From an uncultured Methylophaga sp. (GTDB lineage: Bacteria > Pseudomonadota > Gammaproteobacteria > Nitrosococcales > Methylophagaceae): DNA of 64,000 nt. Below, in pieces: positions 43,451 through 47,012 of this stretch. How positions within the stretch are numbered: the stretch's first letter is position 1; the number at the start of each line of letters is the position of its first letter. A program made the position numbers and the translations under genes. Location of the stretch: positions 434,001-498,000 of the forward strand of contig CAJXKF010000002.1 in the NCBI GenBank assembly GCA_913055695.1. Reading direction: 5' to 3'. Below the pieces are notes generated by a model, which was not told the origin of the DNA, ran no database searches, and worked only from the letters and a program-made list of their open reading frames with translations.

Positions 43451-43809
43451 GTTGCTAAATTACAGCCAAAAAGTTTTAGTTACAACAACAGCTTAGCTTG
43501 GTTATATGAATAACTTCAAATAATGATAAGCGTCGATACTGCAGGGAGCTCAACCCCACGTATCAACTAAAAACGGTTCAGACGAGTGAACTACTCATGC
43601 CAATTCTGTACACACTGAGCTTTCTTCTAAAGCGCTACCACACCTGACTTCTCGGAAATATCACAAGGAACTCTTCGTCTAGCAAGGGGAATTGGTCAAA
43701 AGCCCCAAATTCAGAACTGAATATGTGCAAAAAAAGAGAGTCTCAGGCTCGCACAATACCCTGCGATCATAATACTAAACTAATGTATATGGCCTTAGAC
43801 CTCCGGTTT
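43451..43809. other. Gap of 359 bases without recognised gene
   Basis: Sequence between the cyclase start and the PhnB cassette end. It is more AT-rich than the flanking core genes. No open frame of note, no attC core pair and no convincing terminator were seen here, although a third attC would be expected after the PhnB gene. Confidence 0.5.
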
Positions 43810-44277
43810 CTATGCCTTAACCGCAGCTTCAATTTCAGCAATGTCGATTTTCATTTGCTTCATCATTGCCGCCATAGCCCTGCCAGCCACCTTCTTATCT
43901 GCATTCAAAGTCAATTCGGTGAGTTTTTTCGGGAAAATCTGCCAGGACACGCCGTAGCGGTCTTTCAGCCATCCGCAGTGGCTTTCCTCGCCGCCATCGG
44001 CAGTGAGTGCATTCCACAATCGATCCGTTTCAGCCTGATCCACCGTTTCGACCGAAATCGATACAGCCTCCGTTAATGTGAAATACGGTCCGGCATCGAG
44101 GATCTGGTAAGGCACTCCGCCGAGCGAAAAGTTAATTAACCAGGAAGTGCCGTGTTCGTTATCAATAGTAAAAGTCTCTTCGACCCGGCTGCCATCAATC
44201 AAAGAGCAGTAGAATGCTGCCGCCTCACGGCCTTTGCCGTCTTGGAACCACAAACAAGTACGAATTGAGTTCGACAT
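43810..44277 (-). CDS. PhnB/VOC family protein (integron-cassette-type gene)
   Basis: 155 residues of the VOC superfamily PhnB type (3-demethylubiquinone methyltransferase-like): an N-terminal CLWFQDGKGREAAAFYCSLIDGSRV, FSLGGVPYQILDAGPYFTLTEAVSISVETVDQAETDRLWNAL, GGEESHCGWLKDRYGVSWQIFPK. The catalytic residues of other VOC enzymes are not all evident and no reaction is assigned. GGAGCAGCATC precedes the ATG. It lies directly after an attC site and is oriented like the other cassette genes. Confidence 0.8.
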   Translation of the reverse strand: MSNSIRTCLWFQDGKGREAAAFYCSLIDGSRVEETFTIDNEHGTSWLINFSLGGVPYQILDAGPYFTLTEAVSISVETVDQAETDRLWNALTADGGEESHCGWLKDRYGVSWQIFPKKLTELTLNADKKVAGRAMAAMMKQMKIDIAEIEAAVKA

Positions 44278-44314
44278 GATGCTGCTCCTTGATATAAATA
44301 ATTAAATTACTGAA

Positions 44315-44384
44315 AATTAACGCTTGGCTTTGCGGTGCGCCGGAGCGCAGCGTAGGTGCGTCCGCCAACAGCCACTTGTTAGGC
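44315..44384 (-). other. Integron attC site 2
   Basis: Core boxes GTTAGGC (plus 44378-44384) and AATTAAC (44315-44321) flank 56 bases with an internal hairpin (TGCGC-CGGA-GCGCA at about 44336-44349). Read on the minus strand it is GCCTAAC ... GTTAATT, that is the R'' and R' boxes in cassette orientation, located between the DUF1801 fragment and the PhnB gene. Confidence 0.65.
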
Positions 44385-44401
44385 GAATGCCCTCGATGTG
44401 C

Positions 44402-44554
44402 TTACATCCAAGTTGCGCCATCTTCAAGAGCCAGCTGGATACGATAATTTGCCAATTTTTCAATTAGATCCATTGGCAGAGGTTTATCCAAAGGGAACTG
44501 GATAGTGCTGCTTGACGTTTTGAATTCTTTAAGATCATTTTTTGCTTGTCGTTT
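44402..44554 (-). pseudogene. DUF1801 C-terminal fragment
   Basis: Hand-translated remnant of about 50 codons between the YCII-like gene and attC site 2. It contains TIQFPLDKPLPMDLIEKLANYRIQ and ends in LEDGATWM. The segment -QFPLDKPLP-DLI-K- matches the C-terminus of DUF1801/YdhG-type proteins, whose N-terminal two thirds are missing. No start codon with a ribosome binding site lies in this frame, so it is a truncated relic. Confidence 0.6.
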
Positions 44555-44579
44555 TTATTCATACGAACTGTCTCAGCCC

Positions 44580-44921
44580 TTAATTCTGAGGAATCTCCAT
44601 ACACTCTATGACCTCAATAGAATCACCTGGGAAGACGTTGAAGTGTGGATGATTTCTAAACATTTCGGCAGCTTTTTCCTGCGATTCTGCTTCAACGATT
44701 ATATAGCCCGTAAGGCTGTTGGCGTGGTCTGCGATGCCATCCTTTGAAACTCTTTTGGTCTTACCGAGGGGTGCTCCAAAATCAACTACCGAGTCAGAAT
44801 GCTTTTCAATCCAACGGCCCCATTCCAACATTCCCTCTTGCTTTTTTTCATCAGAAATTTCTTTTTGTGCCTTTTCTTCCTGAGACAATTTTCCAATATA
44901 GACAGCCAAGAACTTCTTCAT
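44580..44921 (-). CDS. YCII-related domain protein (integron-cassette-type gene)
   Basis: 113 residues. A start at MKKFLAVYIGKLSQEEKAQKE and an end at GYIIVEAESQEKAAEMFRNHPHFNVFPGDSIEVIECMEIPQN match the YCII-like (ferredoxin-like alpha-beta) fold common in mobile cassettes; function unknown. The ATG at 44921 is preceded by CAGGAGGTGCGT, a strong site, and starts 31 bases from the core of attC site 1, as cassette genes usually do. The longer frame back to 45026 crosses attC and is rejected. Confidence 0.8.
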   Translation of the reverse strand: MKKFLAVYIGKLSQEEKAQKEISDEKKQEGMLEWGRWIEKHSDSVVDFGAPLGKTKRVSKDGIADHANSLTGYIIVEAESQEKAAEMFRNHPHFNVFPGDSIEVIECMEIPQN

Positions 44922-44951
44922 ACGCACCTCCTGAGCAAGATTAGACCGATC

Positions 44952-45007
44952 GCCTAACGCTTCATTCAGTCGACGTGTCAGCGGTCGGCTGAAGTGATTT
45001 GTTATGC
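44952..45007 (-). other. Integron attC site 1
   Basis: Core boxes GCCTAAC (44952-44958) and GTTATGC (45001-45007) flank a 42-base imperfect palindrome; TCAGTCGAC and GTCGGCTGA pair with a single G-T mismatch. Read on the minus strand the site starts GCATAAC and ends GTTAGGC, matching R'' and R' boxes of attC sites. Confidence 0.75.
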
Positions 45008-45081
45008 CTTTGGGCAATGAAATCACCGCCTGCGCCTTTTATAAAATTTGAGTTATTTCGGCTGAAGCAATCACCTGATAA

Positions 45082-45426
45082 TTACCAAAAATCACCTCTA
45101 CCGCGAGAGTGGATTACATATTCAATTACCTGTGACCCGGTGGCGAATATGATTACATTATGACCATCTGATTTAAGTACATCTGTATATTCCGATATCT
45201 GCCAATTAAAACCTAGGGCCTTTTCTGACATTTCATTGTATGGTCCAAGAAAGCATACTTTCGTCCAATCATGACCGCCTAACTCTGACAGATCTATAGT
45301 TTCGAAATTGTTAGCCTTTAGTTCCGTATAAATCTCTTCACTTGTTTTACTGGTCATGTACTGGTTGTCACTGCAACCAAAGAGGGTAACTAAAGTGCAA
45401 ATAATCACGTTTCTACTCATAGGCAT
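45082..45426 (-). CDS. Small lipoprotein (integron-cassette-type gene), unknown function
   Basis: 114 residues from the ATG at 45426, or 112 from the ATG at 45420. A short hydrophobic N-terminus ends in a lipobox-like TLFGC (Cys18), so it should be a lipoprotein. The mature part (TSKTSEEIYTELKANNFETIDLSELG ... YVIHSRGRGDFW) shows no recognisable domain. The first ATG overlaps the recombination core GTTATGCC. No clear ribosome binding site precedes either ATG. It is the cassette closest to the integrase stub. Confidence 0.65.
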   Translation of the reverse strand: MPMSRNVIICTLVTLFGCSDNQYMTSKTSEEIYTELKANNFETIDLSELGGHDWTKVCFLGPYNEMSEKALGFNWQISEYTDVLKSDGHNVIIFATGSQVIEYVIHSRGRGDFW

Positions 45427-45471
45427 AACAGCATGTTAATGAGGCCGCTGGCCTCATAATAATTATTAGCG
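45423..45471 (-). other. attC-like or attI recombination site 0
   Basis: GCATAAC at 45423-45429 (GTTATGC on the minus strand) flanks the palindrome ATGAGGCC-GCT-GGCCTCAT-type element (45439-45457), with an ATTAGC-like degenerate box near 45465-45470. Position between the first cassette and the integrase stub fits either the attI junction or a leftover attC. Confidence 0.5.
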
Positions 45472-45558
45472 TGAATGGATCATAATTTGATTAGCAAAAT
45501 GAGTCACTTTTAATTTATTGAAATTTAATACTTTTTTTGGGGTGTTTTTTGATAGCTC

Positions 45559-45585
45559 ATCAAGCGTGAATCATTCACGCTTGAT
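45559..45585. repeat. 27-base perfect palindrome
   Basis: ATCAAGCGTGAAT, one base, ATTCACGCTTGAT. It has no T run on either strand, so it is not a usual terminator. It lies between the first cassette and the integrase stub, in the position of an integrase promoter or attI region. Confidence 0.75.
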
Positions 45586-45645
45586 TCCGAGCTTCTGTCT
45601 TGGACGACAGCCATTGAATAAGACTTCAGGGACGAGGTTAATCCG

Positions 45646-45702
45646 ATGTCATCATCTCCGTTTCTCAACTCCATTCGAGAATTCATGATGGTCAGGCATT
45701 GA
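45646..45702 (+). pseudogene. Truncated integron integrase (intI) N-terminal stub
   Basis: An ATG opens MSSSPFLNSIREFMMVRH followed by TGA and then the codons for Ser-Leu. The start matches the N-terminus of Vibrio/Shewanella-type IntI proteins (SxFLxSVREFMxxRxYSxRT), with the stop codon sitting where a Tyr is expected. Homology then ceases. The stub points away from the cassettes, as intI does in intact integrons. Assignment rests on recalled family similarity over ~20 residues. Confidence 0.5.
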
Positions 45703-45830
45703 AGCCTTGGTCGTTTTTCTAACTATTGGCCTAATATTTCATAGGCTTGGGATTGTGGCAAGCACTCGGTAGATTACCGCTCCGTCGCCTCCTCGCATTG
45801 TCTGGATGCACTAAGCACTTCCCTCTCGCT

Positions 45831-47012
45831 TTATGACTTATTCAGTGCTTTGCCTATTCTGTCTGCCGCTTCCAATAATCGCTCTTCACTAGTGGTGTAG
45901 GCAAAACGACAGTGCTTATCCGCTTCGAAAAGCCCAAAATCCAGGCCAGGTGTGATGGCAACCCCTGCTTCTTTTAGCAGGAAGCGTGACAGTGCCATGC
46001 TATCTGGGATTTGCTCGTTCAAAAACGCTGAGCAGTCAGCATAGAGGTAAAAGGCGCCTTGTGGCTTGACGGCGAATTTGAAGCCGACTTGTTCTAATGC
46101 AGGCATTAGCGCATCCCGGCGCTGCTGCAGAATCTGGCGGCGTTGTTCGAGTGTAGCAAGTGTGTCAGGTTTAAAGGCTGCCAGGGCAGCATATTGCGAC
46201 ATGGTGGGCGCCGCAAGATAGAGGTTTTGAGCCAGGCGATCCATGATTTCGGTATAGCCCTCAGGCACGACCAGCCAACCCAGTCGCCAGCCGGTCATGC
46301 CAAAGAACTTGGAAAAGCTGTTGATGACAAATGCGTCCTTATCGACTTCGAGCGCCGTTGGTGCATCGAAACCGTCATAGGTAAGACCGTGATAGATTTC
46401 ATCAACGATGAGCGTGCCCTGCTGTTTTTTAACCGCCGCTGACAATGCGGCCAGTTCGGTTTTGGTCAAGACGGTACCGGTTGGATTGGATGGCGAGGCC
46501 ACAAGAGCAAGACTGGTCTGTGAATCCCAGTAGTCCTCAACGTGTTTTGCGTTAAGTTGATAATGACTCTCTGCCGTGACCGGGACAGCGTTACCCCCTG
46601 CTTCCACAAACCGGGCAAAATGGCGGTTACAGGGATAACCCGGGTCAGCCAGCATGACTTTACGGCCGTTATCCAGCAAAGCGCCCATGACCAGTAACAA
46701 CGCCCCTGAAGCGCCGGGGGTGACGATAATGCGATCAGACGAGACCTTAACTTTGTAATGCGTTTGATACCAGTCAGCAATGGCTTGTCTGAGTTCAGGT
46801 AAACCCAGTGCTGGCGTGTAATGGGTGCGGGCCTGTTCCAAAGCTTTGATACCAGCCTCAATAATGGGCTTGGGCGTATCAAAATCAGGCTCGCCCACTT
46901 CCATATGAATGATATCGTGGCCGCGCGTCTGCAGTGCTTTGGCCTGGGCCAGAATATCCATCACATGAAATGGCGAAATTGCCTGTGCCCTATGACTGAT
47001 TGGCCTAGTCAT
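45831..47012 (-). CDS. Class I/II pyridoxal-phosphate aminotransferase
   Basis: 393 residues, aspartate aminotransferase fold type I. Key features: GEPDFDTPKPIIEAGIKALEQARTHYTPALGLPELRQAIADWY at the N-terminus, SPSNPTGTVL, VDEIYHGLTYDG and the PLP lysine in NSFSKFFGMTGWRLGW. It closely resembles AspC-like or alanine/aromatic aminotransferases, but substrate specificity cannot be told. It directly follows the integron remnant and is a core gene. Confidence 0.9.
   Translation of the reverse strand: MTRPISHRAQAISPFHVMDILAQAKALQTRGHDIIHMEVGEPDFDTPKPIIEAGIKALEQARTHYTPALGLPELRQAIADWYQTHYKVKVSSDRIIVTPGASGALLLVMGALLDNGRKVMLADPGYPCNRHFARFVEAGGNAVPVTAESHYQLNAKHVEDYWDSQTSLALVASPSNPTGTVLTKTELAALSAAVKKQQGTLIVDEIYHGLTYDGFDAPTALEVDKDAFVINSFSKFFGMTGWRLGWLVVPEGYTEIMDRLAQNLYLAAPTMSQYAALAAFKPDTLATLEQRRQILQQRRDALMPALEQVGFKFAVKPQGAFYLYADCSAFLNEQIPDSMALSRFLLKEAGVAITPGLDFGLFEADKHCRFAYTTSEERLLEAADRIGKALNKS

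Follow-up and report, generated by a model that had tools for sequence, protein, structure and literature searches.

Clusters of attC sites that lack an integrase (CALINs) account for about half of the detected integron elements (PMC9024848), and their origin is debated, the proposed routes (listed in PMC8618304) being off-target insertion of cassettes, loss of intI, and rearrangement. The attI sites outside class 1 integrons are poorly described and are not detected by IntegronFinder (PMC9024848). The locus described here, from a Methylophaga bacterium, resembles a CALIN in that it has at least two attC sites (two were found) and no intact intI nearby, but CALINs are defined without an attI (PMC9024848), whereas this locus has an attI site and a relic of intI. 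It can also be compared with the degenerating integrons of Xanthomonas, for which the available part of the report (PMC12444791) describes an ancestral platform beside one conserved gene (the ilvD locus), truncation or loss of intI in many lineages, residual arrays, and further CALINs at conserved loci elsewhere. All of this has its parallel in Methylophaga, but that part of the report mentions no attI at the outlying CALINs, whereas the Methylophaga attI copies head arrays whose cassettes differ between sibling species. In Treponema phagedenis, as in the present case, attC sites and cassettes have outlasted intI; unlike here, the accessible text of that study (PMC3607928) describes neither an intI relic nor an attI family, and states that there is one attI per integron. 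Multiple copies of attI are known from Delta-attI-type cassettes and duplicated attI1, which, according to the accessible portion of PMC12901181, are usable by IntI1, but these lie within arrays of mobile integrons, whereas the Methylophaga copies are found at separate chromosomal loci. No earlier description of attI copies forming a family at different chromosomal sites, or of Methylophaga integrons, was found in the open-licence literature searched. The locus itself is an element of a known kind, and the multi-attI arrangement to which it belongs looks like a new variant. The reading that we favor, and hold to be very probable, is that this decayed integron, with its intI relic, attI and two cassettes, is one attI platform in a genus-wide distributed integron that is served in trans.

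A decayed integron beside an aminotransferase gene

The window, i.e. the whole 64-kb stretch of DNA that was analyzed (G000:C2:434001-498000), comes from a genome of 2.6 Mb (G000), whose nearest named relatives, as judged via the flanking aminotransferase, are Methylophaga species. Reading along the minus strand, the intI relic on the opposite strand is followed by attI, the lipoprotein-like gene, attC2, the YCII-like gene, an ORF fragment, attC1, and the VOC gene. The features of the locus are as follows.

45831-47012, minus strand: aminotransferase (Aminotran_1_2, E=1e-65), anchor gene of the integron site, with orthologues at the same place in L029, L026, and L027
45646-45702, plus strand: intI relic, an 18-codon ORF (MSSSPFLNSIREFMMVRH*), found by blastn against the intI genes of relatives
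45559-45585: perfect palindrome of 27 bp between the intI relic and attI, from sequence and alignment
45423-45478, minus strand: attI, with core G^TTATGC at 45429-45423 (model R2, 74.4 bits, E=1.1e-12, the window copy being one of the ten rows of that model)
45439-45457: attI hairpin, ATGAGGCC-AGC-GGCCTCAT, with compensatory changes in relatives
44958-45428, minus strand: cassette A, 471 bp, bounded by the attI and attC2 cores, with the lipoprotein-like orphan gene at 45082-45426
44952-45007, minus strand: attC2, 3' end of cassette A (model R1, 34.1 bits, E=1.6e-6)
44321-44957, minus strand: cassette B, 637 bp, bounded by the attC2 and attC1 cores, with the YCII-like gene at 44580-44921 and the ORF fragment at 44402-44554
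44315-44384, minus strand: attC1, 3' end of cassette B (model R1, 29.7 bits, E=2.4e-5), with a degenerate R' box (GTTAATT)
43810-44277, minus strand: VOC/PhnB-like gene (PF06983, E=2.6e-34), possibly a last cassette that has lost its attC, or no cassette

A preliminary description of this DNA had read the locus as a decayed chromosomal integron, on the basis of paired boxes with attC architecture, three small minus-strand genes and an intI-like stub, and had named as checks two or more attC sites, a match to the IntI N-terminus, and a relative with an intact integrase and a longer array. That reading holds. The attC model R1 was built from 20 attC sites in the arrays of relatives whose integrases are intact or nearly so, without any window sequence, as a 46-column alignment of the arms with 13 pairs, in which 84% of the cells were paired and the covariation exceeded that of all 500 shuffles; a MAFFT alignment of full attC sites had been dropped in its favor, since the inner arms were misplaced. 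When both strands of the window were searched, R1 gave exactly two matches, both at the integron locus, and these coincide with the two pairs of minus-strand boxes, GCATAAC...GTTAGGC (45007-44952) and GCCTAAC...GTTAATT (44384-44315). Because these are the sole matches in 64 kb to a model that was built without them, the boxes exceed chance. Both sites carry the L''/L' arms and extrahelical bases of the R''/L''/L'/R' architecture, and a motif-plus-arm scan that was independent of R1 returned 44952-45007 as its sole site in the whole window. The full-length attC1 was not recovered by R1 with the filters off, although the default search gives 29.7 bits for it, and we think that this loss is caused by the maximum hit length of the short model. 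In the R1 search of G000, 150 of the 757 candidates were scored and attC1 was not listed, so that this search is not a complete attC count. An Rfam scan gave no match at E up to 1.

The intI-like stub is placed and oriented as had been claimed, at the aminotransferase site that holds an intact IntI in G005, and its MSSSPFLNSIREFMMVRH* reading frame is the true N-terminus of IntI, of 18 codons. By blastn the relic matched the intI of L026 over 58 bp (77.6%, E=3.5e-8) and that of L105/L106 over 39 bp (82%, E=1.5e-6), and colinear similarity to intI runs beyond the stop codon to about 45744, with a further match at 45724-45744. The N-terminal match was thus obtained by alignment to the intI of relatives and not by HMM, the stub being too short for Pfam; neither Pfam nor NCBIfam gave a match to it. 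In G005 (L029/L104), a sister Methylophaga, the gene immediately downstream of the orthologous aminotransferase encodes an intact IntI (316-aa IntI-family match, 441 bits), and beyond it lie about ten attC sites, the longer array that had been looked for. The distance between the aminotransferase and attI is 773 bp less in the window than in G005, a net loss of about 770 bp. N-terminal stubs of IntI are also present at the same aminotransferase site in OBS4 (L026, G015) and M. thiooxydans (L027, G002). A protein and family search of G000 found no IntI elsewhere in the genome; its three tyrosine recombinases were considered and rejected, as none of them reaches E below 1e-30 against the IntI family, and they look like XerC and XerD, as judged by their length and score, and like a longer integrase. 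With an 18-codon stub in the place of a functional intI beside attI, the locus is not a complete chromosomal integron; as in a decayed integron, the relic is divergent from the cassettes and orthologous to an intact intI, and an attI with a core of the G^TTRRRY type (GTTATGC) heads the array. The palindrome next to the relic reads ATCAAGCGTGAAT-C-ATTCACGCTTGAT; its counterpart in relatives differs yet is also palindromic (TTAATCGTGAATxATTCACGATTAA), and it is possibly an operator for intI.

Neither the attI nor the ORF fragment in cassette B had been recognized in the preliminary description, in which the locus was a cassette cluster with an integrase relic next to it. The relic does adjoin the array, and to this are now added an apparently intact attI, as judged from its sequence, and the fact that the array is one of three attI-headed arrays in G000. 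The window attI corresponds to a conserved site at the head of arrays in integrons with an intact IntI (TTATTATGAGGCC-NNN-GGCCTCATTAACANNCTGTTA); over 47 bp it shares 96% identity with the attI that adjoins the intact IntI of G005.

The three small genes are as described at the outset, and two of the three proposed cassettes are well supported, being bounded by sites. The protein of cassette A is an orphan with a lipoprotein-like N-terminus, for which the only homologue among 57 genomes of the family is in G009 (46%). The YCII match of the cassette B gene (E=2.7e-4) is just under Pfam's cut-off; homologues of this gene were found in two other family members (38%) and in none of the other congeners searched, and those on plasmids are distant (54% at best). 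The ORF fragment beside it has a weak DUF1801 match (E=0.065). The third cassette is doubtful, because the VOC gene, which belongs to PF06983 (3-dmu-9_3-mt, a VOC-fold/PhnB-like family), is not followed by an attC of its own: none was detected in 43460-43810 by R1 with the filters off. In the G005 array, a VOC relative (36%) with two stops adjoins an attC. The block had also been called AT-rich, which is true of attI and cassette A (GC 0.38-0.43 vs about 0.50-0.52 outside) and not of the VOC gene (0.48-0.50).

The attI family and its hairpin

Model R2, which was built from the conserved attI site, found three copies of attI in G000, namely the window copy and those at C4:136355 and C11:33225, all of which are followed by attC-bearing cassettes and none of which has an intact intI. 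A strong R1 attC match is present at each of the other two loci (C4, 29.7 bits; C11, 37.8 bits). In the C4 array (L159:814-1506 and 1604-2677; G000:C4:136445-138308), the second integrase-less attI array of this genome, the first cassette encodes a TIR protein with a full-length match to Thoeris ThsB (E=5e-116); a gene of 357 aa without known function and a GNAT fragment come next. The C11 locus (L157:113-1557; G000:C11:33216-34660) consists of a single two-gene cassette without known function and one attC.

Across the genus, attI occurs in 0-9 copies per genome, with at most one intact intI in each. For instance, the numbers of attI and intact intI are 9 and 1 in G007 (one contig), 8 and 1 in G014, 7 and 1 in G013, 4 and 1 in G005, and 8 and 0 in G022; draft genomes may hide an intI, and G022 is a single contig. 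Among the 58 attI loci examined, 45 are followed within 4.5 kb by an R1 attC of the same orientation and 13 have none by this model; over all of these loci, a single attC is oppositely oriented. Stubs of intI are found at several of the dispersed attI loci (G022_d, G022_h, G002, and G009), and these loci may, to judge from the stubs, be relics of complete integrons.

The stem of the attI hairpin varies in relatives (GAGGCC/GGCCTC, GAGGTC/GACCTC, GAAGCC/GGCTTC, and GTGGCC/GGCCAC). In 80 distinct sites, five of the eight pairs were changed on both sides (29 cells), and none of 500 shuffles reached the covariation score; a further test of the hairpin gave z -3.7. The alignment of the 80 sites was fitted to the model, so that the counts lean toward structure, and ten unfitted sequences agree with them. 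Pairing in the hairpin is under constraint. The covariation would also fit a palindromic site that is bound as double-stranded DNA, and the hairpin could, for example, serve for docking of the integrase, for folding of the single strand, or for stabilizing the cassette transcript. The attI1 of class 1 integrons, to which at least 5,000 plasmid records gave a match, carries an inverted repeat (AGGGC-AGTC-GCCCT) that immediately precedes AAAACAAAGTTAGGC and is placed similarly to the Methylophaga hairpin; L007 also has a hairpin before the core (ACCCCC-GCT-GGGGGT). A hairpin before the core as a universal feature of attI was rejected, since it was seen in L007 and attI1 and not in L005/L006.

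Probable cassette exchange at sites without intI

The loci of five sibling species (G008, G013, G014, G022, and G023) were grouped by their upstream flank, which gave 42 within-group pairs of orthologous sites. The flanks of these pairs are typically 80-95% identical and their attI sites are similar, and in none of the 42 pairs are the first 400 bp after the core common to both. In the group that holds the intI-bearing locus the flank identity is lower, due to the presence of intI in some members and its deletion in others. At the best-sampled sibling site, the flanks are about 93-95% identical and the cassettes differ pairwise. Nine pairs were compared by blastn, which showed both flanks to be common, and in all nine the upstream homology stops at +3 to +6 of the core G. 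For example, G008_c and G022_a are 94.5% identical up to +3 and 94.7% identical again from +694/+708, so that exactly one cassette differs at the head of the locus and nothing else. There is a counter-example, in which the attI loci G022_c and G023_b have the same first cassettes (98.7%). The C4 site of G000 is common to G003 and G002, and the homology to G003 stops at +4 and resumes past the arrays, with different cassettes between. Furthermore, the attI locus G022_g, which has no intI and is in a closed genome without intI, carries a block of 2,250 bp that matches a stretch of the G007 array with intI at 99.2% identity; this block begins at the core G and ends within 2 bp of an attC end. In this genus, attI is found at several loci, and at those without intI the cassettes differ between species, with breaks at the core.

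It is most likely, from these sequence comparisons, that cassettes have been exchanged at attI sites served in trans. We infer exchange by IntI in trans because all of the sampled species are without intI at those sites and the breaks fall at the recombination core. We propose that, in this Methylophaga clade, the locus in the window represents the ancestral integron site with an integrase gene; its intI has shrunk to its 18-codon start and a short degenerate tail, with attI and two cassettes remaining. Several attI platforms of about 65 bp or more, nearly identical to one another and located at separate chromosomal sites in the genus, would be filled and refilled by an IntI that is encoded at one site and acts in trans. 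G000 being without an intact IntI, its three platforms would be frozen unless an integrase arrives from outside, and cassette A, which adjoins attI, would be best placed for expression. An attI family that is overlooked by standard tools would explain integrase-less arrays, and such arrays need not be static. In addition, a native IntI with about eight attI targets in one chromosome, together with a covarying attI hairpin, offers a directly testable system.

A further-reaching version, which we put forward tentatively, is that the attI unit, hairpin included, spreads as copies to new chromosomal sites, perhaps through the action of the integrase, and that a single resident or transient IntI loads all of them in trans. 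If this distributed reading is true, the integron would not be a single locus but a network of platforms, and CALINs elsewhere could in many cases be attI platforms that have gone unrecognized.

Exchange in trans has to be weighed against ordinary decay, in which the attI loci all started out as separate complete integrons, through acquisition or duplication, and each lost its own intI independently, after cassettes had diverged under a live local intI with no action in trans. The stubs at several dispersed loci are what decay of this kind would leave, as are those at the aminotransferase site in three species, and each lineage might until recently have had a local intI. However, the five siblings are all without intI at the same sites and their cassettes still differ; since intI is absent there in all of the sampled species, their ancestor was most simply without it there too. 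At the C4 site, moreover, only about the last 60 bp of the attI in G000, G003, and G002 are common with the intI-linked attI units, and the nearly identical cassette block at the G022 site without intI also speaks against decay alone, which we regard as unlikely. It is highly improbable that the attC cluster arose from off-target insertion of cassettes at attG-type sites or from rearrangement, with the intI-like stub being coincidental: both have been proposed as routes to CALINs (cited in PMC8618304; attG in the available part of PMC12444791), but the array head is nearly the same as the attI that accompanies the intact IntI of G005 at the corresponding genomic position, and the stub is colinear with intI and has an intact orthologue there. 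That there is no integron, merely chance inverted repeats between unrelated small genes, is hardly credible, since models R1 and R2 both single out the integron locus and nothing was left in its favor after testing.

Surroundings of the locus in relatives

Several minor observations concern the neighborhood of such arrays. A full-length orthologue of the GGDEF gene was found only in G003, where it has other neighbors, so that the far end of the array is not fixed by it. Adjoining this orthologue, at about 200-750 of L282 (G003:C141), is an ORF that by eye resembles class D beta-lactamases; this spot in the closest relative is where the array would be expected. No attI or intI relic was found in the 438 bp available downstream of the G003 aminotransferase (L024/L117), and a gene that by eye is GFA-like lies directly downstream of it. 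In G019, a second copy of attI with its upstream region lies in the middle of an array (L105:10412-10467, minus strand), a few kb from the first, and is a possible clue to how attI spreads.
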